A stretch of 64,000 bases of DNA. Source: Saprospiraceae bacterium. Lineage in GTDB: Bacteria > Bacteroidota > Bacteroidia > Chitinophagales > Saprospiraceae. The stretch is from assembly GCA_017985675.1 (NCBI GenBank), contig JAGNXB010000012.1:1-64000 (forward strand). Reading direction: 5' to 3'. Position 1 is the first letter of the stretch. Each line of letters begins with the position of its first letter. This document shows, in pieces, positions 1,360 through 24,688 of this stretch. The translations under genes and the position numbers were made by a program. The notes under the pieces were generated by a model that worked only from the letters and a program-made list of their open reading frames with translations, made no database searches and was not told where the DNA came from.

Positions 1360-3864
1360 CTAATTGTTGCCTGGGTTAGGAAGAAGGAGTTTTGTTTCTT
1401 TGAAAATCTGGTATAATTCATCGGCAACTAACTGATGGCCTTTGGCATTAGGGTGAATATCTTTTTCGGACAATTGGATGTCCATAGATTCATTGTTTTT
1501 ATATACAGCATCTATATCTATAATGATGAATCCGGCTTTTCGGGCAATTTCCATGACCTTTTCCTTTTCAGTAAAATCTTCTAATCTTTTAGCTGGTGCC
1601 GGCCAATAAATCCATACAGGTGTAATGTTATTTGTTTTACATAATCTGAAAAGATAGTCGTAACTTTTGATAAGAATTTCTTCTTCAAAGAGTGAGAGTC
1701 TTTTTATCATTTCGGGTTCTGTCATTCCTGAATTTACCCCAGAGCGAGTAATAATATCCTGGAGATATCCAAGAGGAATAGGAATCCCTTTAGTCAGGCA
1801 TGTAGCAATGTCTTTGCTATTTTTGAAAAAATCCTTTCCGTGGGATATATAAAATAAATAGCTGGGTAAGAACTTGGCTATATTTTCTTGTTCAAAGTGA
1901 ATAATGCAATCAATCAAGTCATATGCCGGACACCCATAGTTTAAAAATTCATAATTTAATGAATCTGATGTACTGTTCATTCTGTTTTCAAGAATGACAT
2001 CAAATACTTCCGCATCGGCAACACCTGACCCCGCAACAAATGAGCCACCCATCAGCACGGACCGAATCGTTTTTGGAGACGCATTCAGAGCGTATTCCTT
2101 GTCCCTGAATCCCCACTGGTTTATGGTAAAGGTTTCATCCTTAAATAAAAAACTTGTGTCAGGACGCATAATAATATTCCGGTAATCAAAAATTGTAATA
2201 GCTCCCGGCGTGTTTCTGAATTGTCTGGTTTTTTGGGTGGATAAACCGACAGCAGGATTTGTAATGTTTGATCCCAGGAGGATGTCGGTGTAATATCCTT
2301 CCACTTGTTGTTGTTCATCGGCGATGGTTAACTTGTCTTTCAGGATCCCATCCATCTTCATTTGGGTGCTTTGCTCAATAAAGTTCGTCGAGGCAGGGAT
2401 TAATAAGAGTAGTAAGCCTCCCAACATGGACATAGACCAAAATGAAGCACTCGCTGACGCATGTGGCGGGTTGATCGTTTTGCTCAGATGGTACCGTTCT
2501 ATCAATAGGTATATGGATGTTCCCAAAATCCATGTTCCCCCTACAATTGAAACGAGGACCAGATAGGTATTCGAGTCGCTTGTCAATGCGATTTTTAGCA
2601 ATACAACCCATTCTTCAATAGTACTTGCAGACCATAATGACCATAGTAAACTCATTCCGGAAAAAGTCAGTATTATGTGTGCCGTGGTGATGGCTGCCCG
2701 AGAAAAATTGGATCGGGTCGTCGTTTGTCTGGATTTTCTTAAATCATAAATCGCATTGATTGCAACAAGGATCCCAAAAGTGTTCCAATAGATTGCGTCT
2801 GCCCATTTCCATGGGAAATTACCTTTAAACCAAAACCATTGTAAGGAATGAAGCATCCAAGAAATGAAAAATAGGGCCAGAATCGTTGCAAATATTGCAC
2901 GGACACTTCCAAATTTTCTGAGTTTAAAGTAGATAGGATAGTAAAATACTTTTACCATGAAATCCTTGAAATAGATATTGAGTCTTCGCCATAAATCACT
3001 AAACCCTGTCGCCAAAAAGTAATTATTGAATGTAGCCGGCATGTTGTAACCAAAGAGACATAGTATTCCGGCCGAAATATGGAATAGACCTGAAAGTCGA
3101 ATGACTAATGCGTAATTCATTGTTGCGTAACGACAGAAACTCAGTACATCTGTGACCTCAGAGGTGGGGATGAGTAAATTATAATAGACAAACCTATATA
3201 CAATGAGATGGAATGTGCCAAGTGTAATCCATTGAACGCCTTTTTTGTAAATGAGCAGATCCTTATCATCATACTGTTTTGAAATAAAATTTTTATAATC
3301 TACGGCGGGAAATAAGAGGAAGGCCAAGTTGGGCAACATAAAGAAATAAGAGATATTCTGTATGAATCCAGGGTTTTCCTTTTGATATTTTAGGTCATAT
3401 TGATATATCCATATTCTATATATGAACATAGATCCTGTTACAGATATAATAATAAAATGATCCTGAATCCATTTGTTCCCAATTAGCGCTAGCAAAGCAA
3501 TGACTCCAAATAAAACGGCAATGATGCTTAATCGCAACCACTGAACTTTAATATAGCTCGCCGCTGCAAAAAGGCTCAATCCGATTGCAATTACACCTAG
3601 CGCATTGATCCATCCAATGAAGATGAATAGTCCCGTCAGACTCAGGAGTAAAAAAAATATTGGTTTTATTGATTTGGGAAGTGCAAGTTGAATAATAAAA
3701 CCTATAACTGAAATCGACCAAAGCTCCATTAAATGGATAGATGATTCGATTTCAAATTTCCAAATCAGGTAACCAGTTATTACCAGTTGTGCAAGTAAAA
3801 ACAATAATGCAATTAATGGCTGATAGGGGGTTTTGGATTCCTGAGAGAAGATATTTAATAGCAT
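1360..3864 (-). CDS. MBOAT O-acyltransferase fused to an SGNH/GDSL domain (copy 1)
   Basis: This 834-aa protein has about 500 N-terminal residues of transmembrane helices and a C-terminal soluble domain. The membrane part shows MBOAT hallmarks: SDLWRRLNIYFKDFMVKVF (289-307), then the conserved His339 in WMLHSLQWFWF. The C-terminal domain has SGNH blocks: MGGSFVAGSG with nucleophile candidate Ser608, and DIHPNAKGH with Asp802 and His804. In alginate-type systems the MBOAT carries an acyl group across the membrane and an SGNH protein transfers it to the polymer. Here both halves are in one chain, which predicts O-acetylation (or another acylation) of the exported glycan. The oxyanion-hole Asn block is weak (SHGKD near 674). 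It is a tandem paralogue of the next gene upstream, 52 bp away. Confidence 0.8.
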   Translation of the reverse strand: MLLNIFSQESKTPYQPLIALLFLLAQLVITGYLIWKFEIESSIHLMELWSISVIGFIIQLALPKSIKPIFFLLLSLTGLFIFIGWINALGVIAIGLSLFAAASYIKVQWLRLSIIAVLFGVIALLALIGNKWIQDHFIIISVTGSMFIYRIWIYQYDLKYQKENPGFIQNISYFFMLPNLAFLLFPAVDYKNFISKQYDDKDLLIYKKGVQWITLGTFHLIVYRFVYYNLLIPTSEVTDVLSFCRYATMNYALVIRLSGLFHISAGILCLFGYNMPATFNNYFLATGFSDLWRRLNIYFKDFMVKVFYYPIYFKLRKFGSVRAIFATILALFFISWMLHSLQWFWFKGNFPWKWADAIYWNTFGILVAINAIYDLRKSRQTTTRSNFSRAAITTAHIILTFSGMSLLWSLWSASTIEEWVVLLKIALTSDSNTYLVLVSIVGGTWILGTSIYLLIERYHLSKTINPPHASASASFWSMSMLGGLLLLLIPASTNFIEQSTQMKMDGILKDKLTIADEQQQVEGYYTDILLGSNITNPAVGLSTQKTRQFRNTPGAITIFDYRNIIMRPDTSFLFKDETFTINQWGFRDKEYALNASPKTIRSVLMGGSFVAGSGVADAEVFDVILENRMNSTSDSLNYEFLNYGCPAYDLIDCIIHFEQENIAKFLPSYLFYISHGKDFFKNSKDIATCLTKGIPIPLGYLQDIITRSGVNSGMTEPEMIKRLSLFEEEILIKSYDYLFRLCKTNNITPVWIYWPAPAKRLEDFTEKEKVMEIARKAGFIIIDIDAVYKNNESMDIQLSEKDIHPNAKGHQLVADELYQIFKETKLLLPNPGNN

Positions 3865-3916: not shown

Positions 3917-6472
3917 TTATTGATCTAATTCTTTGATAATTTCCCTAATGATTTCAGGTTTTTCCTTAAGTTTTCTGATGAAAGCTTGGGCCAATAATTT
4001 ATGTCCGGCTTTGTTTGGGTGTGAGTCCCATGTGGCAATTTTGAGATTATCCAAATTTTGATTTTTATAGGCATCTTTAATGATCATCGTCATGATCCCT
4101 TTGGCATTAAGCAGTTCCTGGAGCGCCTCAGCTTCACCCGGAATTTCGTTATCGTCCAAAGTAGGTACATACAGCCATAATAATTTGGCCTGACTTCTTG
4201 CTACAGTATCCCGTAAATACTCGTATCCCCACATGGCTATTTCTTTATCTCTGTCCTTCATTTTTGCCATGAATTCAGTTTCGGTCGTTTTAGCAGTAAA
4301 GCCTCCATCTTTAATTAGATCTTTAAGGTAAGTGTATGAAAGATCACGCCCATTTTGATTGGCTTTAAATACACTGTAAAGGACCCGAAATGCTTCATTA
4401 GAGTGCGCCGTATAGATGACAATGTCTGGATTAAGTGTTGAAGCTTTCTCTTCAAACATTTTTATATTTTGATAAAGATGATTGTTTGATATAGCAAAAT
4501 TTAAGATTTCTACCTTTTTATCTGGTCCAAGTAATTTACTTTTGTTGAGTTCGTCCTCAATCAGATTCTCATAAGTTTCATTTGTATTTACACCTACACC
4601 CATTTCGATAGAGCCTCCTATTAAAACGATACGGATCGTGTTTGCCGGTTTTTCAGCAGTGTATTCTTTATCCCTGAAGCCCAGACTGTTGGTAGTAAAC
4701 AGAGCTCCTTTAAATGGTTTTTGCTGGTTTGGAAGCAATTCCTTCAACATGATGTCATCTCGTCTTTTCGCCACACCTAAAGAGCTGAATTGTTTCCAGT
4801 CATCCGGTTTTTCTACCTCAAGTTCCCAAAGCCTTGAATTCAGGTTATTGCCGACGAGGAGGGTTTCATAATACCCCTTATATTGTTGTTCCCTATCATA
4901 AGCATTTAGTTTTGTCGTCATTATTGGAGAAATGTCCATTCCCAAACGACTTGCAATGGGTTTATGCACCAGAGGTATTCCCAAGCCATTCAACCCTATT
5001 AGAAAGATGCATGCAACAACCCATTTGAGGGGATCGCTCAATGTTAATCCCCCATTTTTCGTTGTCCATTTAAATTGGACGAACTGAACGATTAAGCCAA
5101 TTCCAATTAAGCCCAACAAGCCGGATAGGATCACAATACTTTGGTTTAAGGTCATACTGGAGGATAAAGACATCATAACCAGCCATTCGGATATGGAGTA
5201 ACTTGTCCAGAATGACCATAAAATAGCCATCGTAAAAAACATCCCTATCACTTGAAGTACCATTTTTAAAGCATATCCCAGATGGAATTCGTCGGGTGAA
5301 GGTTTTTTTAACTTGCTTTTAGTTTGGATAATAGCATTAATGCCAACGGCTATTCCAAACAGGTTCCAAAAGATGACATCCTGCCAGGTTATGGGGAACT
5401 GCCCTCTTATCCAAAACCATTGGAAAGCATGTAATAGCCAATTAATGATAAAGACGATTATGGTAGCTAAAAATAGCATGGAAAGTCCTCCATACTTCTT
5501 TAGTCGAAAGTATATAGGGAAATAGAATACTTTCACTACAAAATCTCTCCAGTATATGTTGATTCTTCGCCAAATGTCCGTAAAGCTGCTTGCAAAAAAG
5601 TAATGGTCGAAAGTAGGTGGGAGGTAAAAGCCAAAAAGACATACGACTCCTGCAGCAAAGTGAAACATGCCAGCCAGGCGTACAATCAGCGCATATGAAG
5701 CGATGATGAATTGCAATAGGTTATAAACGTTTTCGATTTCACTGGGTGCCGGCAATAGATAATAGTAAATCAATCTGTACAACAGTAGGTGTAACAGACC
5801 ATTTGCCATCATAAGCAGACCTCGCCTGTACGTTTCAAAAGCTGGTTTGCTGTAATAGTTCCTGATAAACGTGGTGTAATCAACTACAGGAAATATGACG
5901 AAAACTAAATTGGGAAGGAGGAAAAAATAATTCAATTTTTTCCAGAATCCGGCAGATGCTTTCTCAAATTGCATTTCATATAAAAACACGATCATTCTAA
6001 ACGTGAACATCGTGCCCAGGATGGGCAAAATTAGGTTGCCATGATGTAAAGGCAACAAATCAACCCTTGTGGCTATTAAAATAACACCGGCAAGTGTTAC
6101 CAGGATTATGCGCCATTTAATAGCAATAGGTATGGTGGCCAAAAGAAACAACAACCCACCCAAACCAGTTAAAATCAACCCGTCTACCAGACCAAGCAGC
6201 CTAAGGATAGTTCCCAGCGTCAGCAAAAACAATCCTGGTAGTCTCATAGCCGTAGGCAGGAAACTATGAATTATAAACCCACCTATTACCAAAGGCATGA
6301 TCTCGATTAACCGGATATTTTCTTCGATATGGAAAAGGTGAATAGCCAGCCCTACAAGGGAAAGCGGTATAAATATCTTGAAAAAATCAACTAGCCGAAT
6401 AGTTGTATTCGGTGGTGTCGGCACGGACTGTGCAAGCGTACTATCCGGAGATATTACAGATGTGTTTGCCAT
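3917..6472 (-). CDS. MBOAT O-acyltransferase fused to an SGNH/GDSL domain (copy 2)
   Basis: This 851-aa paralogue of the preceding entry has the same layout. The multi-pass MBOAT region carries TDIWRRINIYWRDFVVKVF (298-316) and catalytic His348 in WLLHAFQWFWI. The C-terminal SGNH domain shows block I IGGSIEMGVG (Ser621), block III HSNE (690-693) and block V DSHPNKAGHK (Asp816, His818). Both catalytic sets look intact, more so than in copy 1. It probably acylates the polysaccharide made by this locus, acting at the inner membrane with the SGNH part in the periplasm (inferred). A promoter-like element sits about 50 bp upstream, so copies 2, 1 and the relic may form one transcript separate from the sulfotransferase operon. 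Confidence 0.82.
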   Translation of the reverse strand: MANTSVISPDSTLAQSVPTPPNTTIRLVDFFKIFIPLSLVGLAIHLFHIEENIRLIEIMPLVIGGFIIHSFLPTAMRLPGLFLLTLGTILRLLGLVDGLILTGLGGLLFLLATIPIAIKWRIILVTLAGVILIATRVDLLPLHHGNLILPILGTMFTFRMIVFLYEMQFEKASAGFWKKLNYFFLLPNLVFVIFPVVDYTTFIRNYYSKPAFETYRRGLLMMANGLLHLLLYRLIYYYLLPAPSEIENVYNLLQFIIASYALIVRLAGMFHFAAGVVCLFGFYLPPTFDHYFFASSFTDIWRRINIYWRDFVVKVFYFPIYFRLKKYGGLSMLFLATIIVFIINWLLHAFQWFWIRGQFPITWQDVIFWNLFGIAVGINAIIQTKSKLKKPSPDEFHLGYALKMVLQVIGMFFTMAILWSFWTSYSISEWLVMMSLSSSMTLNQSIVILSGLLGLIGIGLIVQFVQFKWTTKNGGLTLSDPLKWVVACIFLIGLNGLGIPLVHKPIASRLGMDISPIMTTKLNAYDREQQYKGYYETLLVGNNLNSRLWELEVEKPDDWKQFSSLGVAKRRDDIMLKELLPNQQKPFKGALFTTNSLGFRDKEYTAEKPANTIRIVLIGGSIEMGVGVNTNETYENLIEDELNKSKLLGPDKKVEILNFAISNNHLYQNIKMFEEKASTLNPDIVIYTAHSNEAFRVLYSVFKANQNGRDLSYTYLKDLIKDGGFTAKTTETEFMAKMKDRDKEIAMWGYEYLRDTVARSQAKLLWLYVPTLDDNEIPGEAEALQELLNAKGIMTMIIKDAYKNQNLDNLKIATWDSHPNKAGHKLLAQAFIRKLKEKPEIIREIIKELDQ

Positions 6473-6577: not shown

Positions 6578-7387
6578 TCAAACATTCGCAATCTGTTCCT
6601 TTGAATAGAATGTCAGCCAGGCACCATCGTATTTGGAGAGGCCTTGTTTAATCCTTTCCAAACTTTCAGGACTGTATAAGGCACTTCTGTTCCGATTTTG
6701 AAGAGGTTCTGTCAAAATGGATGCATCAGGTATCCAATTTTGTAAAGAGGCACCACCCGATGAAATCATGTCCTCGTACTTCAGGATGGTCAGATCAGGT
6801 TGGTTCACGTATTTCCTGAATAGCGCATCAAGCAGCCTGATTTGACGTTGGAGTAAATCAGGAATAGCTTCCAACTCCTGATGTAACGCTGGGTTAAGGG
6901 TTTGCAGAACGGTGAGTGTTCCTCTTGCTACCGGTGCCTGGATAGTATTCCAGGAGGCAATGATAGAAACAGGATTGCGTATGATGGCGGCACATGGATA
7001 CAATTGAACGAGCTCGTCCAGCAAAAACGTGAAGTGGGCATTTTGTTTCAGGACCAAATGAAAATCCTCCGAGAGGGGTTTCTTAAAATAGACCCAATCT
7101 TTTTGAACGATACTTTGCCGGATAGTTCCGATTTCCTGGGTAAATGGATTGTCGGGAATAGTTGATCCACTGGCCTTGGACAATGCTTTGCCCTCTTTTA
7201 AGAGGCTAAGACGCATGGCAATAAAAAAATCAGCGATGGACTTCAAACCGGATGGAGGGTCAGGGAACATCCGGAGGTTCATTGGTTCATGTAAAGCTAC
7301 CGTATTGGGTACTTTGTTGAGTAGGTAACAAGCCAGGGTCGTTCCTGACCTCGGTGGGCCGGTTAGTATGTAATTCTCCCGATTCAT
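6578..7387 (-). CDS. Sulfotransferase family protein
   Basis: This 269-aa cytosolic-type enzyme is predicted to move a sulfuryl group from PAPS to a sugar hydroxyl. The 5'-phosphosulfate-binding loop is GPPRSGTTL (10-18), and the 3'-phosphate site is IIRNPVSIIASW (135-146). Overall layout and length fit the bacterial Sulfotransfer_1/3 group. Its ATG overlaps the stop of the upstream paralogue (ATGA at 7384-7387), so the two are probably translationally coupled. The acceptor cannot be read from sequence; the exporter, glycosyltransferases and other sulfotransferases around it point to a surface polysaccharide. It is the last gene of a five-gene minus-strand operon. Confidence 0.83.
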   Translation of the reverse strand: MNRENYILTGPPRSGTTLACYLLNKVPNTVALHEPMNLRMFPDPPSGLKSIADFFIAMRLSLLKEGKALSKASGSTIPDNPFTQEIGTIRQSIVQKDWVYFKKPLSEDFHLVLKQNAHFTFLLDELVQLYPCAAIIRNPVSIIASWNTIQAPVARGTLTVLQTLNPALHQELEAIPDLLQRQIRLLDALFRKYVNQPDLTILKYEDMISSGGASLQNWIPDASILTEPLQNRNRSALYSPESLERIKQGLSKYDGAWLTFYSKEQIANV

Positions 7388-8229
7388 GATTGTTTCAGCA
7401 TGTCCTGTGATAAGGTAAGGATGGATTCATTTGAATAATAGGAATTCCATGCGCCACCCCGTGTGATTAGCGCCTGTGTCAACTGCTTAATCCTTCCAGT
7501 TTCATAAAGTGAACTGGTATTTCGGTCTTTTAAAGACCAAACGGGTACCTCACAATCCGTTATTTGACCCAGAATGGATCCATTACCCGAAACTACCTCT
7601 TCGTACCGTAGGACATGTTGCTCCGGTAGGGTAGTATACTGTTTGAAATACCAATCCAGTATAAAAAGCTGTTTTTCAAGTAACGTAGGTATTGCTTCAA
7701 TTGCCTCTGCAAAAGCGGGCAGGAGCCGAGTTGACTTGGCTACCTTACCACGGGAGACCGGTACATTAACCGTTGCCCATGAACTGAGCAGTGCCAAAGG
7801 GTTTCGAACTAATGCAAATACCTGGTATTGATCTGCCAATTCAGGAAGCAAAAGCGTAAACTCTGCACAGTGTTTCAAGGCGAGCTGAAACTCGGATGAA
7901 AGGGGTTTGTCAAAATGGATGTCCATCCGGTCAACGACGCGTGTTCGCAGCCCTTTAATTTCACTGTAAGCATTGTCCGTAATGGTTCCGTTTTCTACCC
8001 GCGCAGGTGCCGTACCATAATGAAGAAGGGAAGATCGGAATGAAGTAAAACTGCTGGCAATGTTGGCCAATGCGGTTCGCCGGTCAGGAAATACATCCGC
8101 AGAAAGCGGTTCGTTTAGTGCCACTACATTGTTACACTCACTGAGTAATCGGCATAATAAGGTTGTACCGGAACGTGGAATTCCGGTCAGTATAATGTTT
8201 TGGTTGTTTGCAACATTAACTTTGGTCAT
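7384..8229 (-). CDS. Sulfotransferase family protein
   Basis: This enzyme has 281 aa from the ATG at 8229. A longer frame to 8280 would overlap the upstream gene by 65 bp and adds no domain, so the shorter start is preferred. The PAPS loop is GIPRSGTTL (16-24), and the 3'-phosphate motif is VRNPLALLSSW (141-151). It is clearly paralogous to the downstream sulfotransferase (same spacing, same EP motif after the first helix, similar C-terminal aromatic region). It overlaps the glycosyltransferase gene by 14 bp and the next sulfotransferase by 4 bp (ATGA). Probable role: a second, differently specific sulfation of the glycan built by this locus. Confidence 0.83.
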   Translation of the reverse strand: MTKVNVANNQNIILTGIPRSGTTLLCRLLSECNNVVALNEPLSADVFPDRRTALANIASSFTSFRSSLLHYGTAPARVENGTITDNAYSEIKGLRTRVVDRMDIHFDKPLSSEFQLALKHCAEFTLLLPELADQYQVFALVRNPLALLSSWATVNVPVSRGKVAKSTRLLPAFAEAIEAIPTLLEKQLFILDWYFKQYTTLPEQHVLRYEEVVSGNGSILGQITDCEVPVWSLKDRNTSSLYETGRIKQLTQALITRGGAWNSYYSNESILTLSQDMLKQS

Positions 8230-9238
8230 GGAATAGTTTTTTATCGGCCCACAGTGAGTCTGCACGATCGAGCAACTCAAGTATTGCGATTCTTTCCTGT
8301 TCGATGGTATGGTTTTTACTCATAATTAGTGCCTGCTGGATGATATTCGTTTTATCAGAAATAGAAAGTGCCAATGCATTTACAATGGATTGGAAGATGG
8401 CATCTTCTGTATATTCAGGTTGTAAACAGGTGACATCGGGTATACAAAAATCCGAATTCCCAATGGCATAGGGGCAAACAACCAGTTTGCCCATGGCCAT
8501 ACCTTCTAGCGCAGGCAAATAGAATCCTTCAGAACCAAGTTCGGCTTCCAAGGGTAAATAGGCTACTGTTTTTGCTCTGTTGACCAGGTTTAAAAAATCA
8601 CTTCTTGTGGGTAATTTAGGGGGTACCTGTATAGCAATATTTAACGGTTTGCCGTCGCGGTCTGTAAGTGTTTGAAGCCTTCGTTCAAGGGCTTCTGCCA
8701 TAGGTTGATTTTTTAAACCCACGACGAGAATGTCCAGGTCTGGGTTTGGATTAGGCTTTGGCAGCAAATCCATATCAATAGCATCCGGAATGCAAAAAAC
8801 AGGCCCATTTACTCCATAGTCCTCCAATATCTTTTTTCCAATTTGACTTTTGGCTATCCGAATTGCAGGGTGTTTGAGAAACGCATTGCGTCTATCAGTG
8901 GGTGATACATGACGTGGTTGAGCAATATTTATAACAGGTACAGGTGGTTTCTTGCGCTCCTCAGGAGGCAGGACCAACCAATCCAATCCGGCAAAAAATA
9001 GGATATCCGATGGTTGTATTTCCCATGCAGGTTCGCCCAGGTGGCGGTAAGGAAGCCACAGATTGCCGGGATTTTCAAACCAAACTGTTTCGGGTCCGAA
9101 GTAAATATGTGGTTCAAAATCAGGTGATTGCATGGCATGTTCAAAGGCGTCACGCACTTTTAGTTGTCCGCCGCTGGTGCCTCCATTAAATTTGGTCCAG
9201 GATCGATGAAAAAGTACGCGCCTTTTGGAATTTGCCAT
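8216..9238 (-). CDS. Glycosyltransferase, GT4-like (GT-B fold)
   Basis: This 340-aa protein has the GT-B donor-site signature GSEGFYLPALEGMAMGK (235-251), with the Glu-x7-Glu pattern of GT4 retaining enzymes. The preceding VFCIPDAIDM segment matches the domain-linker motif of the family. The N-terminal domain is divergent (HRSWTKFNGGTSGGQ). It is sandwiched between two pairs of sulfotransferases: its start overlaps the stop of the upstream gene by one base (TAATG at 9237-9240), and its end overlaps the next start. A role in assembling the sulfated glycan is inferred from context; donor and acceptor are unknown. Confidence 0.75.
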   Translation of the reverse strand: MANSKRRVLFHRSWTKFNGGTSGGQLKVRDAFEHAMQSPDFEPHIYFGPETVWFENPGNLWLPYRHLGEPAWEIQPSDILFFAGLDWLVLPPEERKKPPVPVINIAQPRHVSPTDRRNAFLKHPAIRIAKSQIGKKILEDYGVNGPVFCIPDAIDMDLLPKPNPNPDLDILVVGLKNQPMAEALERRLQTLTDRDGKPLNIAIQVPPKLPTRSDFLNLVNRAKTVAYLPLEAELGSEGFYLPALEGMAMGKLVVCPYAIGNSDFCIPDVTCLQPEYTEDAIFQSIVNALALSISDKTNIIQQALIMSKNHTIEQERIAILELLDRADSLWADKKLFHDQS

Positions 9239-9900
9239 TAAGATGGATTGTTTAATTCAGCGTCTCTCAAAAATTGCGCCCGATTGTACAGTACCATATC
9301 CCATTCATTTAGAGCGCATATCTCGTCATATTCATGCGGCGTAACCTGATAATCTTTTCGAGAAGTATTCAACATTGGGGTTGGGATTGCGGGCCAATCC
9401 AATTTTTTAGCCAGTCGGGTCAAGTCATGCTCAAAATATTCTTGTAATCCACAAAAATAGATGTCGTCAATATTCAATCCTTCCAGGAAATAGGCCATGC
9501 GATTGCGATTTTCAGGCAATCTGGCATATTCCATTAAACGTTCATTTCGCCGATGTTGATTAATTCTGCTTACCTCGGGATTTATGCCGGGATGTGCAAG
9601 CCGGTCAATAAAAAAGCGATAATTAGAGATGACACGATCAGCCGGATGCCGCAGCCACGTTATAATCCGGGCGTTTGTAGATGTATGTAATGAACGAATT
9701 TCTGCATACCGAAAATGTCCGTGTACCACGCGAAAACCGGTAAGGTGTTTTAGTTCTATTTGTCCGTCCGGATCCATGATATCCTGAAGATCCATTCGAC
9801 GGTAGCCAGGGCTTAAGTCCAAACGATATACGTCGCTTAGCACCTTGTAAAAAGAGGTGCCCGCTGTTTTGGGGATATGAATGGAAATCAGTTCTATCAT
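9238..9900 (-). CDS. Sulfotransferase, Sulfotransfer_2 / heparan-sulfate-2-O-type family
   Basis: This 220-aa enzyme starts at the ATG at 9900, which overlaps the upstream stop as ATGA; a start at 9909 is possible but would lie inside the upstream gene. The 5'-phosphosulfate loop is SIHIPKTAGTSF (6-17), and the 3'-phosphate motif is WLRHPADRVISNY (82-94). Both are typical of the carbohydrate sulfotransferase group that includes HS2ST and chondroitin sulfotransferases and is different from the two PRSGTT-type enzymes downstream. It is a close paralogue of the next upstream gene. Predicted substrate: a sugar in the local polysaccharide (inference). Confidence 0.82.
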   Translation of the reverse strand: MIELISIHIPKTAGTSFYKVLSDVYRLDLSPGYRRMDLQDIMDPDGQIELKHLTGFRVVHGHFRYAEIRSLHTSTNARIITWLRHPADRVISNYRFFIDRLAHPGINPEVSRINQHRRNERLMEYARLPENRNRMAYFLEGLNIDDIYFCGLQEYFEHDLTRLAKKLDWPAIPTPMLNTSRKDYQVTPHEYDEICALNEWDMVLYNRAQFLRDAELNNPS

Positions 9901-10613
9901 CGCTGCCAATGAGCTTTTTCCCTCAAAACAAGTGCATGTTCATATAGAGCCACATCCTCCTGATTTAACGATCGAATGATATCCCGCTCCGTATCTGTGA
10001 TAGAAGAAGTATCTTTTCCTGTTTGATTATGGTGGAACACCGGATAATCTGCCCATGCCATACGGTTGGCCAGCGTCTTTAGATCCTCATCGTATTGTTC
10101 AACGATGCCTACAAAATGCATTGTTTCAAGGGACAGTCCTTCGAGGAATCGGCTCATTCGGTTTTGATTGGTCTCATCATGTGCATATTCAAGCAGTGAC
10201 CGCTGCATTTTTCTTAATATATTCAGACCACGCTGTTCTTCTTTGAGCTCTTCAGCAAGTCGTTTGGCCAGGTAATGATAATTGGAGACAACTCTGCGAA
10301 CAGGATCTCTGAGCCAGGTAATCACAGGTAATGCCGGATCCACATGAAAGTGTTGTGTGAGGAGTGGATACGAATAATGACCATGAATTACGCGTGTGCC
10401 CGGCGGCAAGGTACTTTCACTATATATTTTTTCTCTTATCCTGACTTCCTGTCTTACCAGGCCAATATCCAGACGGACGACCGCTTGGTCTCCATATACA
10501 CCAGCCAATGTGTTTCTAAAGGAGGTTCCGGCTGTTTTAGGGATATGAATGGAGATCAGCTCAAGTTGGGCCGACTGGTCCAGAGTGTTTTTTTTATTAT
10601 AAAAGGAAAACAT
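9897..10613 (-). CDS. Sulfotransferase, Sulfotransfer_2 / heparan-sulfate-2-O-type family
   Basis: This 238-aa protein is the first gene of the minus-strand sulfotransferase operon. It has the PAPS loop SIHIPKTAGTSFRNTL (21-36) and the 3'-phosphate motif WLRDPVRRVVSNYHYL (100-115). The two proteins of this pair share the same order of motifs, including the GLS/GLN-x-IH/DD-x-F-x-G-L segment near residue 160, so they probably arose by duplication. The gene is divergent from the sulfotransferase-glycosyltransferase fusion on the plus strand, and the 324-bp gap between them should hold both promoters. Confidence 0.82.
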   Translation of the reverse strand: MFSFYNKKNTLDQSAQLELISIHIPKTAGTSFRNTLAGVYGDQAVVRLDIGLVRQEVRIREKIYSESTLPPGTRVIHGHYSYPLLTQHFHVDPALPVITWLRDPVRRVVSNYHYLAKRLAEELKEEQRGLNILRKMQRSLLEYAHDETNQNRMSRFLEGLSLETMHFVGIVEQYDEDLKTLANRMAWADYPVFHHNQTGKDTSSITDTERDIIRSLNQEDVALYEHALVLREKAHWQR

Positions 10614-10937
10614 ATTTGATACTTAATGTTTAGTCACACAACGTATTATGTTGCCATAGCCTATTCCGTATGACGAGAAGTCAATCTTTCTATGGATTAT
10701 ACGGTGAACAGTTGCTTTTTGCTGCTATATGATATAAATTTATATAATATTTGCCACAATTGATGGCATTGGCGGGCTTTTTGTGTTAGACAGCCTTGAC
10801 GTATATTGATTTTCCTACATATGGACAACACAAACCTGGTCTTTATATGGAAATCCTTTTAAACAAGGCCATTTGATGAGTTTTGCTAAACGCGGAAATA
10901 CAATATCGATCCAACAATTATAGATCTGAAGGACAAA
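10614..10937. promoter_or_regulatory. Divergent intergenic region (two promoters expected)
   Basis: This 324-bp AT-rich stretch lies between divergent operons and contains no credible ORF. A weak candidate for the plus-strand promoter is TTTTTG at 10716-10721 and AATATTTG at 10746-10753, but the spacing (24) is long and the -7 box has one mismatch. No clear RNA structure or terminator was recognised. Confidence 0.35.
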
Positions 10938-13028
10938 ATGATTTGGCTAGCCTCATTCCCCCGTTCGGGCAATACATTCTTCCGGAATGTACTGTATGAA
11001 GTTTATGGTATCGAGTCCAGTACCTTTCATATGGAACCAAACTATCCGGTAGACGAACGTTATGATCAATTTCCGGTAGTAAAAACGCATTTGCTTCCCT
11101 CGCAGTTAAAACCTGGAGATCCCTCTATTAAAAAAGTTTACCTGGTGCGCGAGGGTAGGGATGCACTCGTATCCATTGCGCACCATCGTAAGGATATTAT
11201 TGACCCGGGCACAGATTTTTATGTAAATCTGTTGGAGGCTATCCTTGCTATGGAAGGCAGTTTTTTTGGTGGTTGGTCAGAAAACGTTAAGCAGTGGATG
11301 GACGAGGCGGATATCGTTATTCGTTTTGAAGATCTTATAGATGATCCAATTCGTGAGGTGGAAAAACTCCGATCAATCATGGATCTGCCTGAACCTCAGG
11401 TGGATAAATTACCAAGTTTTAAAGATTTAAAATTTGGCAATCCCAAATATGGTGCAGCCAGAAAGTTGTTGGACGAACGGCAGGTCGAAGAGCTGGCACG
11501 CAAGAACTTCCGCAGAGGCAAATCGGGGTCATGGAAAGATGAGATGCCTCCGGAAATTGAATCCTTATTCTGGGAGCTCCATGGGGAACAAATGGACGCA
11601 TTAGGGTATGCACGTGGTCCTATTGGCGATGCATGGGCTGCCAGGCTGGCTGATGGAGAAAACGAACCATATCGCATACTAATTGAAGGTAATAAAACTG
11701 AGGATGACCACATGGATGGTGTCCGCAGGTATCTGGAAGAACTTATCTATGGTTTGGGTGCTTTTCAAATGCGTCAGCCGGAAAAGTGGCGGATTGACAT
11801 CCTAACCTCGGGAAAAATCGAACCTATACTGCCGTATATTCAAAAGTTGGAGAGCCGGAGGGAAGCAGAACGCCGCAAGTATGGTGTTATTCAAAAAGAG
11901 CGACGGAGCCTAGAAAAATCCCTTCTTGATCTCAAAGCAGGCATTAAGGCGATCCTCCCGACCATTATTTATGATAACCTCAGTCCCATATACAGGGCAT
12001 TGCCCGTGAGGGATGTCCTTAGGTGGTTGCGTGGCGATACGGTGATGGACAAATATAGGAAGGCATGGAAGGATGCCAGTCGTACCCATCAGCTTGTACA
12101 CGTACCTCTTCCTCAGAATTATTACTTTGTGTCCAGGTTAAATCTGCCTTTTGTCTTTACTGTCCATGACCTTACCCACAAGCTCTATCCCCAATATCAC
12201 GATAAAGAAAATGTGCAATTAACCGAAAAAGGGATGCAGTTTATTGCAGATAAGGCCGCAGCAATTATAACGGTATCAGAAAGCACGCGTCAGGACCTAT
12301 TGGCTCATTACGCTATTGATGGAACAAAAGTCCAATTGGTTTACGAAGCGGCCAATGCAGATCGGTTTAATCCGAAACGAGATCCGGCCCAATGGGAAGA
12401 AGTTCGCAACCGGTATGCTATCCCCGACGGCCCATTTTTGATCAGTTTGTCCACGATTGAACCCCGGAAAAATCTAATAAATGTCATCAGGGCTTTTCTT
12501 GAGTTAGCAAAGGATCCCGATTGTGCCGGTTTGAATCTGGTGATCTGTGGCCGCAAAGGCTGGAAACATGAAGAATTTATTGGTCCATCCGATGCTGCTT
12601 CGAATCGAATTCATTTTACGGGCCATGTCATTGATGATGACCTGCCCTGGTTGTACAGTTATGCAACCGGCCTGTGTTACCTGGCACATTATGAAGGATT
12701 TGGACTCCCCCCTTTGGAAGCAATGCGTTGCGGTACGCCGGTGATTTATGGGAATAATAGTTCGCTTTCAGAGATTATAGGAACGGCCGGAATTCCTGCT
12801 GATCCGGATGATATTCAGGACATTGTAGCTCAAATGAAACGGATTCAACAGGATCTTTCATTTAGAGAAACGCTGGTCACAAAAGCGCATAGTCGGGCAA
12901 ATTATTTTTCATGGCTAAAAACGGCATTTCAAACATTGATCGTTTATGAAAAAACAATAAAAAGTTTGCCCTCCGAAGCGGACCAGGTTCGGATGTCCCG
13001 TATCCAAACGCAAGAATTGCGCCCATGA
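10938..13028 (+). CDS. Bifunctional sulfotransferase - GT4 glycosyltransferase fusion
   Basis: This 696-aa protein combines two enzymes. Residues 1-225 are a sulfotransferase: ASFPRSGNTFFRNVL (5-19), the 3'-phosphate motif YLVREGRDALVSI (68-80), and the family's late motif RRGKSGSWKDEM (192-203). Residues from about 228 to the end are a full-length GT4 enzyme: MDGVRRYLEELIYGL near the acceptor side, TVHDLTHKLYP, the linker STIEPRKNL, and the donor-site motif EGFGLPPLEAM (586-596). There is no stop or frameshift between them, so the fusion looks genuine. It implies that one sugar is added and sulfated by the same polypeptide. The stop overlaps the next gene (ATGA). A short charged helix (residues 310-340) lies within the GT part. 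Confidence 0.85.
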   Translation: MIWLASFPRSGNTFFRNVLYEVYGIESSTFHMEPNYPVDERYDQFPVVKTHLLPSQLKPGDPSIKKVYLVREGRDALVSIAHHRKDIIDPGTDFYVNLLEAILAMEGSFFGGWSENVKQWMDEADIVIRFEDLIDDPIREVEKLRSIMDLPEPQVDKLPSFKDLKFGNPKYGAARKLLDERQVEELARKNFRRGKSGSWKDEMPPEIESLFWELHGEQMDALGYARGPIGDAWAARLADGENEPYRILIEGNKTEDDHMDGVRRYLEELIYGLGAFQMRQPEKWRIDILTSGKIEPILPYIQKLESRREAERRKYGVIQKERRSLEKSLLDLKAGIKAILPTIIYDNLSPIYRALPVRDVLRWLRGDTVMDKYRKAWKDASRTHQLVHVPLPQNYYFVSRLNLPFVFTVHDLTHKLYPQYHDKENVQLTEKGMQFIADKAAAIITVSESTRQDLLAHYAIDGTKVQLVYEAANADRFNPKRDPAQWEEVRNRYAIPDGPFLISLSTIEPRKNLINVIRAFLELAKDPDCAGLNLVICGRKGWKHEEFIGPSDAASNRIHFTGHVIDDDLPWLYSYATGLCYLAHYEGFGLPPLEAMRCGTPVIYGNNSSLSEIIGTAGIPADPDDIQDIVAQMKRIQQDLSFRETLVTKAHSRANYFSWLKTAFQTLIVYEKTIKSLPSEADQVRMSRIQTQELRP

Positions 13029-14233
13029 AGATTGCCATCATAGCGGATCCTATCGATAACCAAAAGGGAGGGGTGCACGTATATACCAAAGAGGTCGTGA
13101 ATGGGTTGATTGCGGCCCACAGCCATCATACCTTTATGCTTGTGCGCGAACGAAAGGATCTGTCTTTGTTAAATGTAAAACAGATTGTTATTCCCAATAT
13201 CCGTATTGGGCTGGGTCTTGCAGCCCTTCGTTTATTTATTATTGTTCCCCTTGTTTTGTGGTGGAATAAGGTGGATGCGGTTTTTGAACCCGCACATTTT
13301 GGACCGTTTAATCTGCCCCGCAGAATTCGCCGCATCACCATGATCCACGATTTGACTCCTTTTTTGTTTCCACATTATCATCGGTTTCACAGCCAAATCT
13401 TACAAAAGATCTTTCTTCCCGGAATTTTAAGACGGGCAAATGTGATATTGGCTAATTCAGTACATACTGCTAAAGATATCCTCCGTTTTTTCCCGGATAC
13501 AAGGTCAAAGGTGGTTCCTATACTACTGGGATGTGATCCGATCTTTAAACCAATGCCCGCATCCCAATTCCTTGAGGAGGCCGGTATTCATAAACCCTAC
13601 TGGCTTGCGGTGGGCACCATTGAACCGCGAAAAAATTTAGTCCGACTTCTGGACGCATTTGCCCAGTGGAGAAAGATAAATGATAACAATGGGCAGTTAG
13701 TCATTGTCGGTCAAAAGGGTTGGAGGTCCGAAGCATTTTATGAAGCCCTTGAAAAACATCCTTATACATCGTCCATCGTTTTGACAGGTTATGTTTCCGA
13801 TGAATCATTGGCTGTTCTTTATACGCATGCAGTTGGTCTTATTTATCCTTCCGAATATGAAGGATTCGGTTTGCCCGTGCTGGAGGCATTAAACTGTGGC
13901 TGTCCGGTTATTTGTTCCGGGGTTTCAAGCTTACCCGAGGTGGGGGGCAGCGCCGTTTTGTATGTAGATCCGCTGGATATTTCCACCATTGTGACGCAAA
14001 TGACAACATTGTTTTCACTGTCCGAAGAGGAACGAAATGACAAAATTTCCGCAAGTCTTGCACAGGCTGCCAAATTCAGGTGGTCCAACCACGTCCAAAC
14101 CTTATTGAAGATACTTGATCAGTTAGAACTCCGGAAATCGCTGGATGAATGGACTATGGCGACAAACACGACAACACACTTTGGAATAAAAAAGGATATA
14201 TCATCATCCTCAAAAAAACTTAGTGCCAGCTAA
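13025..14233 (+). CDS. Glycosyltransferase family 4 protein
   Basis: This 402-aa GT-B enzyme has the N-terminal IADPIDNQKGGVHVYTKEVV acceptor-side motif, MIHDLTPFLFPHYH, the linker VGTIEPRKNLVRLLDAF and the donor site YEGFGLPVLEALNCG. It closely resembles the GT half of the fusion upstream, so the pair may be a duplication that act on successive sugars. It is translationally coupled to the fusion by an ATGA overlap at 13025-13028. It is cytoplasmic and presumably membrane-associated with the lipid-linked glycan. Donor and linkage are unknown. Confidence 0.87.
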   Translation: MKIAIIADPIDNQKGGVHVYTKEVVNGLIAAHSHHTFMLVRERKDLSLLNVKQIVIPNIRIGLGLAALRLFIIVPLVLWWNKVDAVFEPAHFGPFNLPRRIRRITMIHDLTPFLFPHYHRFHSQILQKIFLPGILRRANVILANSVHTAKDILRFFPDTRSKVVPILLGCDPIFKPMPASQFLEEAGIHKPYWLAVGTIEPRKNLVRLLDAFAQWRKINDNNGQLVIVGQKGWRSEAFYEALEKHPYTSSIVLTGYVSDESLAVLYTHAVGLIYPSEYEGFGLPVLEALNCGCPVICSGVSSLPEVGGSAVLYVDPLDISTIVTQMTTLFSLSEEERNDKISASLAQAAKFRWSNHVQTLLKILDQLELRKSLDEWTMATNTTTHFGIKKDISSSSKKLSAS

Positions 14234-14286: not shown

Positions 14287-17200
14287 ATGAATGCAAATAT
14301 GAATAAATGGTTTTGGCTGGGATTCGCAGCCATTTGGACAGTACTAGTTGTCTTTTCCTATTGGAGTTTCCATCCTAATTATGCCGTTGCCTTTGGCGAT
14401 TTACCAAATGCCGGAATGGCATTTGTTTTACTTGCCGTATCTGCTGGGGTATGGTATACGCTCCAACGGACTAAGATAGTCATTAATGGCATTCGGATTT
14501 ATGGATTTCTTTTGTTTTTACAAATGCTTGTCTTTGGAATCTATGCCAGTTCCATGAATATATTTCCGGATGGGGTAGGCCAAAAAGTGACTTATTTTCT
14601 TGCGTTCAATGTACTCCTTCATGTGGCAACAGCCTTTATTTTCCTAGTCCATTATGCGCTAGGGGAATGGGTTGTACGACATTTAGCCACAAAGATTTCT
14701 TCTTCAAGTATTCCGGTCCTAAGCCTTGCCGTTGGAATTAGTATTTCAGGGTTTATTTTGGTTTTATTAGGCCTGGCGGGAGTCCTTCACGGCTGGGTCA
14801 TTTGGGTCTTGGCTGGAACAATTGTCCTTTTGCAGCGAAAAAAAGTGTTGGATATACTCAGGTTAGTCCTTCTCAAGCCAATGACGCCGCCTTCCGAATA
14901 TAAATGGAGTACTGTTCCTGTTTTTTTGATGCTTATTGCGATGGCGGTCAATAATGTTGGTATAGTGCAGGCGTTTCCAGTTGGTTTTGATGGAGCGGGC
15001 CTGTATATGAATACATCCCATCTCATTGCTCAAAGCCATGCTTTGCCATTGGTCGGTCAGGCATTCAACTGGGAAATATTTATGAGCCTGGGAGAGTTGA
15101 TGTTTGGGTTGGTTCCGCTATCTATTTTACTTTCTCATCTGGCCATTGTACTTGTCGTATTTGCAATGTATAGACTTGGTCGATTATTTATGGGGAAGGG
15201 TGCTTCCTGGCTTGCCGTTGCACTCCTGTATGTAAATCCCGCTTTTGCATTTCACGCCGGCCTCGATTCAAAAATTGACCTCGGACTGCTTTTCATTATA
15301 TTAAGTACGCTGCTGCTAATTACAGAATACTATTTTACTAAGCAGGATCCCAATATCACCCCAGAGCCCGTTATTCGTATTGGCAAAGTTTCTATTTCCC
15401 AGCAGGTAGCGCTATGGTCTATAGCAGGGTGGCTGTGTGGATATGCTTTTGGTGTAAAATACACAGCATTATTTGTAATGATCGCCGTGATAGCTGCGTA
15501 CTATTATAAGTCAGGCGGATTGAAGCAAGGCGCAGGTGCCTTGTTGCTGGGCATTGGCGGATTATATTTGACAGGCATAGATCGTTTTGCTTATCTGGAT
15601 TTAGGTGGTTCATCCTCATGGATTGTTGCATTAATCGCCCTTATTCCTGGCAGTATGCTTTTTGTGTGGGGAATAGTTGAACGAGGCACTCCAATAAAAC
15701 AGCTTGTAAAGCTTCCTGTTTTATTTGTTTTATTTGCTTTATTTGCTTTTTCGCCCTGGATGGGAAAACATTATGTGGAGAATAAAAAGTTCTCTATAAG
15801 TGCTTTGGTGCAGGGGAAAAAAGGTATTCCGGTCCTGGTAGAAAAATCATTCAGGGCGCCTGAATCCCAAAAAGCGAATCTGCAAAAACAAAAGGTTATT
15901 TCTGCACTCGAAAATCTTGGTATCGAGCTAGACCAACAACAGCTTGTAAATGCGGAAGCAATTATTTCCGGTTTTGATTTTGTAAACCTGGATCCGCAAA
16001 GTCGCCTTAATGCTTTATTGCAGGCCCGTAATGGAATTATAGCACAGGTCCTTACGGAGGAGCAGCGCACTATGGTTAATGGTGTACTTGCCAATTCAGG
16101 ACAGGATGCCAATATGATAAAGGAGGATAGTGAAGCAGCCCTTTCTTTAGTACAGCGAATTTTTGATCGCAGGGGAATTACACTTTCAGCAGAACAGCTT
16201 TCTCAAATCAGAGAAAAATTGGATTTTAGCATCCTGCAGGGTATTCAAATAAAGGGAAATAAAGAGTGGGCTACAAGCTTCAAAGCAGATGTCTTTGCTA
16301 ACGTACTTTCTGTAAGCCAAAAGGATCAAATGGCTGGACGCCGGCAGGCAGGTGATGTGACAGAAGAGTCTGGCGCGGCAAAACCAACATTATCCCTTGC
16401 AGAAGTTCAGCGTGAAGAGATTCAGCGATATATTGGTTATGAAAAGGGCCTGCCACTTTACATGTCGCTGCCTTATGACATAACTATGAATACTAACGTG
16501 TCTTTCTCCCGGTATCTGGATATTTCATTCCTGCTTCTTTTGTTATTGCCTTTTTTGTTTTGGTCCGGCAACTTGCTTAAAAATAGTTTGGTTAGTCTAC
16601 TCAGCATTGTTTTTTGGGTTGTTGCGGTCTATTCTGTTTATGTCGGCAAGGACATCACATCGGCAAGTGCATTTGGAGAGATTATAAGGCAGCAGACAGG
16701 GACTCATCCGGGAATGTTATCCGCCATGATTCTGCCTGTATTTGAATCCATACAGTGGGCTATTTATAATTTGGGCAAATCTATGGATGGACTCTATACT
16801 TCTATCTCCAGTATTCGATATATGTGGATCGTCCTGGTCATCTTCATAACATCGGGACTTTGCTGGTGGGCGTTAAAATCTAAATTGCACGCTGTTCCAA
16901 TAGTCATTAAATTTATTGGTGGATTTTTACTTGCCTTTGGTTTGCAATGGTTTTTATTTGGTAACGCGATCATTTGGTACGGATTTACCTTTTTTGCAGG
17001 GATGTTTTTAATAATGGCCTATTTGGCCTATCAGCCGGAACATTTCGGATTGAAAATATTGAGTGGATGGGTTGGGAACTGGTGGCGCATCAGTGTTGGT
17101 CTTTCATTGATTTTGGGGCTGTCTATCTTTTTTGTAAGTGGCATACAGGAACAAAGCAGAGCAGCATATTTATTCCAAACCCCCTTCCTCAAATATGCCA

Positions 17201-17697
17201 GCCAACGGCAATCACTACAAAAAACGCAGGCTCAGTTTATGCCTTATATGGATAAGGTAATTACCACGCTAAATGCGGACACTAAATCAAATATCTATCG
17301 CGTAGGCACATTTTTCCACTATCATATCGCACGCAATGATCGGAGGGTATTGGAGGATAATCAATTAGGCGTATTTGCCCAGATTACGGATAAACTTGAA
17401 AATAAGGAAGATTTTATTCGTATTTTGAAAGAAAGCGGATTTCGGTATATCCTGTTTGATATCAACACGGCAGCCATTGATAAAACGCCGGAAAAATCGC
17501 TGACACGGAAAGCGAACGAATTTTATTTAACCTTGTCCGGTTCTACTTTGGTAAGGCCATTGTTTACCGATAATTTTATCAAAGATCCGGCTGTTCCTTT
17601 TACGAAAGTAGGGGATGTTAATGTGCCCGGCAGACCAGGAATGGGTGGAGAAACAACCATGATTGGCCACTTTATTTTGTTCGAAATATTAGAATAA
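14287..17697 (+). CDS. Large GT-C-like polytopic membrane protein with a periplasmic helical insert
   Basis: This 1136-aa protein has many transmembrane helices at residues 1-490 and again from about 740 to 990, plus a C-terminal soluble part. The region with VGFDGAGLYMNTSHLIAQ and the later LYVNPAFAFHAGLDSKID resembles membrane glycosyltransferases of the GT39/PMT (GT-C) type that use polyprenyl-phosphate sugars; I cannot assign a family with certainty. Between the membrane blocks, residues 495-735 form a polar, Gln/Glu-rich helical insert with two similar halves carrying LTEEQ (about 588), LSAEQ (about 633) and LSVSQ (about 673). Start ATG 14287; ATG at 14299 is an alternative. The GT2 gene 12 bases downstream could supply the polyprenyl-phosphate sugar. 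Confidence 0.65.
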   Translation: MNANMNKWFWLGFAAIWTVLVVFSYWSFHPNYAVAFGDLPNAGMAFVLLAVSAGVWYTLQRTKIVINGIRIYGFLLFLQMLVFGIYASSMNIFPDGVGQKVTYFLAFNVLLHVATAFIFLVHYALGEWVVRHLATKISSSSIPVLSLAVGISISGFILVLLGLAGVLHGWVIWVLAGTIVLLQRKKVLDILRLVLLKPMTPPSEYKWSTVPVFLMLIAMAVNNVGIVQAFPVGFDGAGLYMNTSHLIAQSHALPLVGQAFNWEIFMSLGELMFGLVPLSILLSHLAIVLVVFAMYRLGRLFMGKGASWLAVALLYVNPAFAFHAGLDSKIDLGLLFIILSTLLLITEYYFTKQDPNITPEPVIRIGKVSISQQVALWSIAGWLCGYAFGVKYTALFVMIAVIAAYYYKSGGLKQGAGALLLGIGGLYLTGIDRFAYLDLGGSSSWIVALIALIPGSMLFVWGIVERGTPIKQLVKLPVLFVLFALFAFSPWMGKHYVENKKFSISALVQGKKGIPVLVEKSFRAPESQKANLQKQKVISALENLGIELDQQQLVNAEAIISGFDFVNLDPQSRLNALLQARNGIIAQVLTEEQRTMVNGVLANSGQDANMIKEDSEAALSLVQRIFDRRGITLSAEQLSQIREKLDFSILQGIQIKGNKEWATSFKADVFANVLSVSQKDQMAGRRQAGDVTEESGAAKPTLSLAEVQREEIQRYIGYEKGLPLYMSLPYDITMNTNVSFSRYLDISFLLLLLLPFLFWSGNLLKNSLVSLLSIVFWVVAVYSVYVGKDITSASAFGEIIRQQTGTHPGMLSAMILPVFESIQWAIYNLGKSMDGLYTSISSIRYMWIVLVIFITSGLCWWALKSKLHAVPIVIKFIGGFLLAFGLQWFLFGNAIIWYGFTFFAGMFLIMAYLAYQPEHFGLKILSGWVGNWWRISVGLSLILGLSIFFVSGIQEQSRAAYLFQTPFLKYASQRQSLQKTQAQFMPYMDKVITTLNADTKSNIYRVGTFFHYHIARNDRRVLEDNQLGVFAQITDKLENKEDFIRILKESGFRYILFDINTAAIDKTPEKSLTRKANEFYLTLSGSTLVRPLFTDNFIKDPAVPFTKVGDVNVPGRPGMGGETTMIGHFILFEILE

Positions 17698-17709: not shown

Positions 17710-18405
17710 ATGATTAAGCCGGAGGATATCTGGATTGTAATCCCGGCCTATAATGAAGGGCCGGCAGTTGGGGAAGTGGTTCGTCGAATACGATCCTGCG
17801 GGTATCCTCATGTACTAGTGGTAAATGATGGCAGCACGGATAATACAAAGGAGGAAGCTACACGTGCCGGAGCTCGTGTAGTGTCACACCTTGTCAATCG
17901 GGGCGCTGGTGCTGTAACGCAAACGGGCATCGCACTCGCGAGGCGAGAAGGTGTTTCTTACATCATCCAATTGGATGCCGACGGTCAGCATTATCCGGAG
18001 GATATTAGCCGTCTGGTCAAAGCAATGTCTGCTGCAGATTGCGATATTATTATAGGTAGTCGGTTTATGGATAAAAGTGAGGGTGTCCCTGCCATTCGTG
18101 TGGTTTATAATTCAATTTCCAATGTATTTACCAACTGGTTTTGCCATACCTGGTATTCAGATACCCAGTCGGGATTTAGAATGCTTAACCGGCGCGCAAT
18201 CGAACACCTCAATCTACGTTTAGACGGATTTGGTTATTGTAGTGAAATGATCGTACAGGCTGAGCAATGGGGGCTGATGATTTTGGAGGTGCCTATACGT
18301 GTTCAGTATACTGCTTATTCAATGAGCAAAGGACAAGACCTACACACAGGTATTATTACCGCATTAAATTTGCTTTGGAAGTTGGTCTTTTATCCCAAAC
18401 ACTAA
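17710..18405 (+). CDS. GT2 family glycosyltransferase, polyprenyl-phosphate sugar synthase-like (DPM1-like)
   Basis: This 231-aa GT-A enzyme has VIPAYNEGPAVGEVVRR at the N-terminus, the nucleotide-binding VVNDGSTDNTKE, the metal-binding QLDADGQHYPEDI and the DTQSGFRMLNRRA acceptor motif of the dolichyl/undecaprenyl-phosphate mannose or glucose synthase group. It lacks C-terminal membrane helices, so it is the soluble form. The next gene encodes a small DUF2304 membrane protein, a common partner that could anchor it. Likely role: makes a lipid-phosphate-linked sugar for the GT-C protein upstream (inference from context). Confidence 0.87.
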   Translation: MIKPEDIWIVIPAYNEGPAVGEVVRRIRSCGYPHVLVVNDGSTDNTKEEATRAGARVVSHLVNRGAGAVTQTGIALARREGVSYIIQLDADGQHYPEDISRLVKAMSAADCDIIIGSRFMDKSEGVPAIRVVYNSISNVFTNWFCHTWYSDTQSGFRMLNRRAIEHLNLRLDGFGYCSEMIVQAEQWGLMILEVPIRVQYTAYSMSKGQDLHTGIITALNLLWKLVFYPKH

Positions 18406-24682: not shown

Positions 24683-24688
24683 TGCGCC

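Follow-up and report, generated by a model that had tools for sequence, protein, structure and literature searches.

A sulfotransferase-rich polysaccharide locus of a Saprospiraceae bacterium with a predicted pyrrole-acylation module

The DNA analysed here (the window) comprises 64,000 nucleotides from a Saprospiraceae bacterium (contig JAGNXB010000012.1, positions 1 to 64,000 of the forward strand) and carries a cassette of five sulfotransferase (ST) domains together with an ATP-binding cassette (ABC) exporter, glycosyltransferases (GTs), two acyltransferase genes in which an MBOAT half is fused to an SGNH half, and genes that very likely supply a carrier-bound pyrrolyl group. The window starts at the first base of the contig, where the left end of the locus is cut. 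These genes are predicted to produce an ABC-exported polysaccharide that is sulfated in the cytoplasm and to which, once outside, a Dlt-like system adds (halo)pyrrole-2-carboxylate esters, a reading to which we assign a probability of roughly 0.55. A preliminary description of this DNA had proposed a sulfated-exopolysaccharide locus; a predicted sulfated, ABC-exported glycan is still the best fit for the ST half, but pyrrole acylation had been missed. The genes listed there simply as acyltransferases encode MBOAT and SGNH halves in one protein and are linked to a (halo)pyrrolyl-carrier pathway, and the polymer is therefore predicted to be pyrrole-acylated besides being sulfated. Gene identities, motifs, linkage, co-occurrence and the genes for 3'-phosphoadenosine 5'-phosphosulfate (PAPS) are read directly at the sequence level. 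Comparisons were made with 61 relatives of the same order, 398 genomes of the same family and 14 named controls.

Sulfotransferase cassette and PAPS supply

A Pfam scan places five ST domains of three families inside positions 6578-13028, in open reading frames (ORFs) located where the preliminary description had put them, and agrees with its division into two ST types (a PF13469 pair and a PF03567 pair) plus an ST-GT fusion (PF00685 with GT4):

6578..7387, minus strand: ST3a; PF13469 at 33.3 bits, above cutoff; PRSGTT and RNP..S motifs invariant
7384..8280, minus strand: ST3b; PF13469 at 23.7 bits, below cutoff; 40% identity to ST3a
9238..9909, minus strand: ST2a; PF03567 at 25.1 bits, above cutoff; HIPKT.G.S motif
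9897..10613, minus strand: ST2b; PF03567 at 29.5 bits, above cutoff
10938..13028, plus strand: ST1-GT4 fusion; PF00685 at 68 bits and GT4 (PF00534) at 85 bits

Four of the five STs pass the curated Pfam cutoff (27 bits for PF13469, 22 bits for PF03567), the exception being ST3b. In orthologue alignments that include other genera, the 5'-phosphosulfate-binding (5'-PSB) and 3'-phosphate-binding (3'-PB) motifs for PAPS are invariant in ST1 (SxPRSGNT with RxGRDxxVS), ST2 (HIPKTxGxS with RxPxxRVxSN) and ST3 (LTGxPRSGTTL with RxPxxxxxSW). From their domains and binding motifs, the STs of the locus are predicted to be PAPS-dependent. None of them has a membrane segment, and they are therefore expected to work in the cytoplasm, the compartment that contains PAPS.

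A search of 60 relatives for the ST1-GT4 fusion found orthologues (44-63%) in each of the four congeners and in five other genomes, with an additional one (41%, cut by a contig end) in genome G040. The block formed by ST1-GT4, by ST2b, ST2a, a GT, ST3b and ST3a, and by the MBOAT-SGNH genes largely recurs in G004, G005, G011, G033 and G299, and the gene order of the cassette is kept across several Saprospiraceae genera. In many genomes the STs are accompanied by Wzm/Wzt and GTs, and three genomes belonging to one related genus have PF00884 sulfatases in this locus. The claim that such ST density is unusual for bacteria stands against the 14 distant controls (PF13469 in two, PF00685 in two, PF03567 in none) but not within the order, where dense clusters are common: PF13469 is present in 48 of the 61 relatives, PF00685 in 46 and PF03567 in 21, and clusters of like density occur among relatives on G038 C1, G058 C321/C355 and G059 C23. 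Density as a generally unusual feature was dropped as overstated for this order and is retained relative to the distant controls only.

Two observations concern STs elsewhere. Contig C38 of the same genome (locus L036: 2537-3403, 6544-7464, 9516-10328) carries another glycan locus, in which three further STs accompany a flippase-like and an O-antigen-polymerase-like protein, which suggests a second sulfated polymer, of the Wzx/Wzy type. Outside the Saprospiraceae, the ST1-GT4 fusion is present in Cryomorphaceae and Planctomycetaceae metagenome-assembled genomes (MAGs; L064 10001-12136, L065 and L066) that have no close homologue of the dehydrogenase described below.

No PAPS-synthesis genes lie in the window, and the preliminary expectation that supply is encoded elsewhere was confirmed by a genome search. 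The sole adenosine 5'-phosphosulfate (APS) kinase of the genome is on contig C45, in an operon cysC-cysD-cysN that adjoins a gene for a TviB-like UDP-GlcNAc 6-dehydrogenase. Beside this operon lies a NusG/UpxY-looking ORF, to which no NCBIfam model matched at the cutoff used. No PAPS/APS reductase (CysH) was found genome-wide in the assembly, which is 94% complete, the only PF01507 match being that CysD; PAPS would therefore serve sulfation rather than cysteine. Since the genome makes PAPS and no PAPS reductase was found, sulfation of the polymer is considered likely. Genomes G002, G003 and G017 have no clear APS kinase despite their STs, which may reflect an assembly gap or another source of PAPS.

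Fusion acyltransferases and the predicted pyrrolyl-carrier pathway

The two large genes beside the cassette encode the fusions:

1360..3864, minus strand: MBOAT-SGNH fusion acyltransferase 1; DltB-like membrane half and SGNH half (AlphaFold2 model)
3917..6472, minus strand: MBOAT-SGNH fusion acyltransferase 2; 30% identity to copy 1, same invariant residues

The Pfam MBOAT model gave no match to this gene pair, 1360-6472 (ACYLTRANSFERASES), and the SGNH lipase match was weak. In the AlphaFold2 (AF2) model of fusion 1 (predicted local distance difference test score, pLDDT, 82, from a 15-sequence alignment), the membrane half has DltB (8jem, E 5e-7) as its top PDB match, followed by HHAT and PORCN, and structure comparison of the C-terminal half returns SGNH esterases. 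As modelled, the membrane half has the MBOAT fold with its catalytic His. His339 (MBOAT), Tyr524 and Tyr525 (linker), and Ser608, Asn642 and His804 (SGNH) are invariant in 25/25 homologues, and Asp802 is kept in 24 of the 25. A 2025 study (PMC12148441) describes the acyl group as passing from MBOAT to SGNH via the Tyr of an FXYXXF motif, and states that MBOAT/SGNH systems except Dlt are without a carrier protein.

Directly past the GT block lies a complete four-gene pyrrolyl-carrier set, transcribed leftwards between 24934 and 20541 (minus strand):

24689..24934, minus strand: carrier protein, 81 amino acids, phosphopantetheine Ser in a DSI motif; DS motif in 18/18
23156..24682, minus strand: L-proline-type adenylation enzyme, PltF-like; top single-domain PDB match PltF 6o6e
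21984..23132, minus strand: L-prolyl-carrier-protein dehydrogenase, acyl-CoA-dehydrogenase-type; top PDB profile match 4irn, 394 bits
20541..21893, minus strand: FADH2-dependent halogenase, PltA-like; top PDB match PltA 5dbj; WIWLIP motif

The specificity code of the adenylation enzyme, at positions that we take to follow the standard GrsA numbering, reads DLFYLALVC off the aligned motifs, one residue apart from DLLYLALVC in PltF; among 20 homologues the last code position is V in several, and a few deviate elsewhere. Its profile score is 390 bits for 6o6e and 302 bits for DltA. Activation of L-proline is predicted. PltF is an L-proline ligase, and 6o6e is identified as PltF in PMC11253843. 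The closest PDB profile to the dehydrogenase, 4irn, is a prolyl-acyl-carrier-protein dehydrogenase, and its NCBIfam ranking is headed by PigA (352 bits) and RedW, both below their equivalog cutoffs. The halogenase has both the GxGxxG and the WxWxIP motif, the latter missing in the L149 and L150 orthologues. By their sequences, these enzymes very likely form a pyrrolyl-carrier, and the pyrrolyl group is probably then halogenated, with chlorination or bromination possible.

Several further genes were noted around this pathway. In many relatives a methyltransferase-like gene, absent there in the window, follows the halogenase (L028 1626-2384, L043 3728-4435, L151 6561-7280, L152 13778-14524 and L157 16107-16856) and may methylate the pyrrole or a sugar. 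A small conserved lipoprotein (19960-20409) adjoins the halogenase, and its homologues in relatives are weakly similar to the membrane protein at 14287-17697. At L056 8422-10389 (G008), a prolyl-dehydrogenase-like gene adjoins an ST-like ORF among nonribosomal peptide synthetase (NRPS) genes, possibly for a sulfated pyrrole natural product.

The fusion and the carrier pathway occur together. Among the 61 relatives, ten genomes encode a full-length fusion; a close dehydrogenase homologue is confined to nine of the ten, and in the remaining one, G002, the halogenase lies at a contig edge. Among the 398 family genomes the fusion is found in 24 and a dehydrogenase of at least 255 bits in 21, all 21 with the fusion (the G001 dehydrogenase, split over two contigs, was counted by its two parts). 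The two thus coincide in 21/24 fusion genomes and 13/14 genera (Fisher p ~4e-32 by genome and ~4e-16 by genus, with no tree-shape correction). When dehydrogenases at E<=1e-60 are taken without the 255-bit cut, the fusion accompanies 21/41 (p ~1e-20). About 15 of the 21 genomes have fusion and dehydrogenase on one contig, roughly 2-17 kb apart, and a 22nd, G373, has the fusion with a weaker (30%) dehydrogenase, a carrier and an adenylation (A) domain a few kb off.

Three operons have no ST beside them. G091 has a five-gene operon of fusion, carrier, A domain, dehydrogenase and halogenase-like gene; G230 has the same with the fusion ORF split; and in G112 the A domain, dehydrogenase, halogenase-like gene and fusion lie together, the carrier not being seen at a contig end. 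Together with the co-occurrence, these ST-free operons suggest that the fusion is a functional partner of the carrier pathway, and they also indicate that the acylation module is separable from sulfation. Combined ST and pyrrole loci are present on single contigs in G011, G033, G389 and a public MAG labelled Phaeodactylibacter (CAJXNH010000034.1, L063), and in G299 with one end cut. That STs and pyrrole genes are always found together was rejected, given four cases of ST1-GT4 without a close dehydrogenase and the three ST-free operons.

Export genes, proposed mechanism and alternatives

As the preliminary description stated, Wzt and GT4 genes adjoin the cassette, Wzm being cut by the contig end:

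1..237, plus strand: Wzm-like ABC-2 permease, last 78 codons only; ORF open at contig edge
247..1092, plus strand: Wzt-like polysaccharide-export ATPase, 281 amino acids, complete; PF00005; top NCBIfam models TagH and galactan Wzt, sub-cutoff
8216..9238, minus strand: GT-B-like glycosyltransferase; weak PF13692/PF00534; 46-67% orthologues in the same cassette elsewhere
13025..14233, plus strand: GT4 glycosyltransferase; PF00534; directly after the ST1-GT4 fusion in most loci
14287..17697, plus strand: polytopic membrane protein, 1136 amino acids, possibly GT-C; no Pfam match
17710..18405, plus strand: polyprenyl-phosphate-sugar synthase-like GT2; PF00535; PpgS model at 183 bits, sub-cutoff
18412..18762, plus strand: DUF2304 small membrane protein; PF10066
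18759..19844, plus strand: GT4 glycosyltransferase; PF13439

Exporter, GTs and STs share one locus in the window, and do so with a full-length Wzm orthologue adjoining Wzt in L048/L030, L063, L152, L153 and L156. The GT-C label of the 1136-residue protein, which matches the AglB oligosaccharyltransferase weakly (E 6e-4), is tentative because its AF2 model is only fair (pLDDT 69). Further along the window, 49408-58470 and 58763-63856 encode giant proteins of 3020 and 1697 amino acids with HYR_4C repeats and CHU_C type IX secretion signal domains, which are likely secreted adhesins.

In the proposed mechanism, the chain would be assembled by GTs in the cytoplasm, sulfated there by the five PAPS-dependent STs and exported via Wzm/Wzt; the GT-C-like enzyme may add sugars outside, fed with polyprenyl-phosphate sugar from the GT2 enzyme. 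In parallel, L-proline would be activated and loaded onto the carrier (23156-24934), and the dehydrogenase would oxidise it to pyrrolyl-2-carboxyl-S-carrier, which is probably then halogenated. The MBOAT half would take over the carrier's (halo)pyrrolyl group and pass it through the membrane to the SGNH serine, perhaps by way of Tyr524/525, and this serine would esterify the exported glycan. Overall this would resemble the DltABCD route of D-alanylation, except that DltB and DltD are fused and that proline becomes a pyrrole. Sulfation, halogenation, transfer by the fusion and the choice of acceptor are steps that we infer, the transfer being likely on account of co-occurrence and operon structure, with the exported polysaccharide the presumed acceptor. 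The narrower proposal of an undescribed Saprospiraceae envelope acylation, in which a carrier-fed MBOAT-SGNH fusion puts halogenated pyrrole-2-carboxylate on an exported, multiply sulfated polysaccharide, is held tentatively, at slightly less than even odds.

It should be noted that several findings weigh against this reading. The fusion linker, GYYxx[ILM], is placed similarly to the FXYXXF shuttle motif without matching it, and around Tyr524-Tyr525 it is disordered in the model (pLDDT <50). The halogenase-like protein of two stand-alone operons is without WxWxIP. The 255-bit cut was picked post hoc, once the data had been seen, and the Fisher values take no account of tree shape. In the congeners G002 and G003, which do have STs, no APS kinase was found, and G017 gave only a trace match. 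Lastly, L064, L065, L066 and G040 carry the ST1-GT4 fusion but no close homologue of the dehydrogenase, so that sulfation and pyrrole genes are separable.

In the most probable of the alternatives, the fusion would move pyrrolyl to another acceptor, such as an outer-membrane lipid, the lipopolysaccharide core or a small glycoside, and the adjacent ST cassette would constitute a sulfated-glycan pathway of its own. The ST-free operons show the acylation module to be independent of STs, and the ST1-GT4 fusion and the ST2 genes are on different contigs in G002 and G003; interleaving of MBOAT-SGNH genes with STs and Wzm/Wzt in the window, G033, G389, G256, G299 and L063 speaks for a joint pathway, and we regard this alternative as unlikely. 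Slightly less probable still is a plain sulfated exopolysaccharide, with the fusions acting as ordinary acetyl-CoA O-acetyltransferases and the adjacent pyrrole genes making an unrelated metabolite. Characterised MBOAT/SGNH systems other than Dlt do use acyl-CoA (PMC12148441), and L064 and L065 have STs but no pyrrole genes; the coincidence of fusion and close dehydrogenase, mostly on one contig, and the G091, G112 and G230 operons, which contain hardly any other genes, speak against this reading. A small sulfated, glycosylated pyrrole natural product in place of any polymer is improbable: although pyrrolyl-carrier genes usually serve natural products (e.g., pyoluteorin and prodigiosin) and STs are able to modify small molecules, no polyketide synthase (PKS)/NRPS assembly line was seen in window positions 1-25300, and Wzm/Wzt, several GTs and the GT-C-like protein belong to the machinery of polymer production.

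Relation to known systems

Literature searches with partial coverage (no bioRxiv, few subscription journals) returned no match to the adenylation code strings and nothing relevant on a pyrrole-acylated polysaccharide or such a system, and the combination of STs and pyrrole decoration in one surface-sugar locus appears undescribed. If the polysaccharide-acylation reading is true, Dlt would no longer be the only carrier-dependent MBOAT-SGNH system: the locus would be the second, one whose transferase is fused and whose acyl group is that of a secondary metabolite, and it would yield the first surface polysaccharide decorated with halopyrrole, joining polysaccharide sulfation to halopyrrole natural products. 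Bacteria would also have a means of placing aromatic esters, which may be halogenated, on an anionic polymer of the cell surface, and the locus would be a source of enzymes for sulfated or pyrrole-modified polysaccharides.

The Dlt system (DltA, DltB, DltC, DltD and DltX; teichoic acid D-alanylation) shares an A-domain enzyme, a small carrier, a DltB-like MBOAT and an SGNH partner with the window and, if the mechanism holds, the delivery of a carrier-bound aminoacyl-type group to a polymer outside the cell. Here, however, MBOAT and SGNH are fused, the A domain is of the L-proline type, a dehydrogenase and a halogenase would alter the loaded residue, the host is Gram-negative and the polymer is probably another. 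Classification as a true Dlt system was therefore rejected, the A domain not being of the D-alanine type and the transferase being a single fused protein. No separate DltX-like gene was identified at the locus, where no search aimed at DltX-like ORFs was made. In AlmEFG, which esterifies lipid A with glycine, an A domain and a carrier likewise feed a Gram-negative envelope esterification, as proposed here, with another transferase type, another acceptor and no dehydrogenase or halogenase.

PatA/PatB and AlgI-type O-acetyltransferases (PMC12148441) share the MBOAT His, the SGNH catalytic residues and an invariant Tyr after the membrane domain; those are separate proteins that use acyl-CoA and no carrier, whereas the window has one polypeptide tied to a carrier operon. 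The pyoluteorin (PltF, PltL, PltE and PltA), prodigiosin and anatoxin pathways have the same four enzyme types; the A-domain code is one residue off PltF, and the nearest solved structures are PltF, PltA and 4irn. In contrast to those pathways, the window genes have no PKS/NRPS seen beside them and are linked to membrane acyltransferases and polysaccharide genes. On the sulfation side, STs and GTs with an export system are also described, in the portions of the two reports available, for the synechan xss cluster of Synechocystis (PMC8205485) and, with ABC export and cysNDC, for the sulfated capsule of Vibrio KMM 8419 (PMC11641403). Unlike the window locus, neither is reported in those portions to have a pyrrole module, and the ST counts given there are two for synechan and three for the Vibrio KMM 8419 region, compared with five in the window locus.

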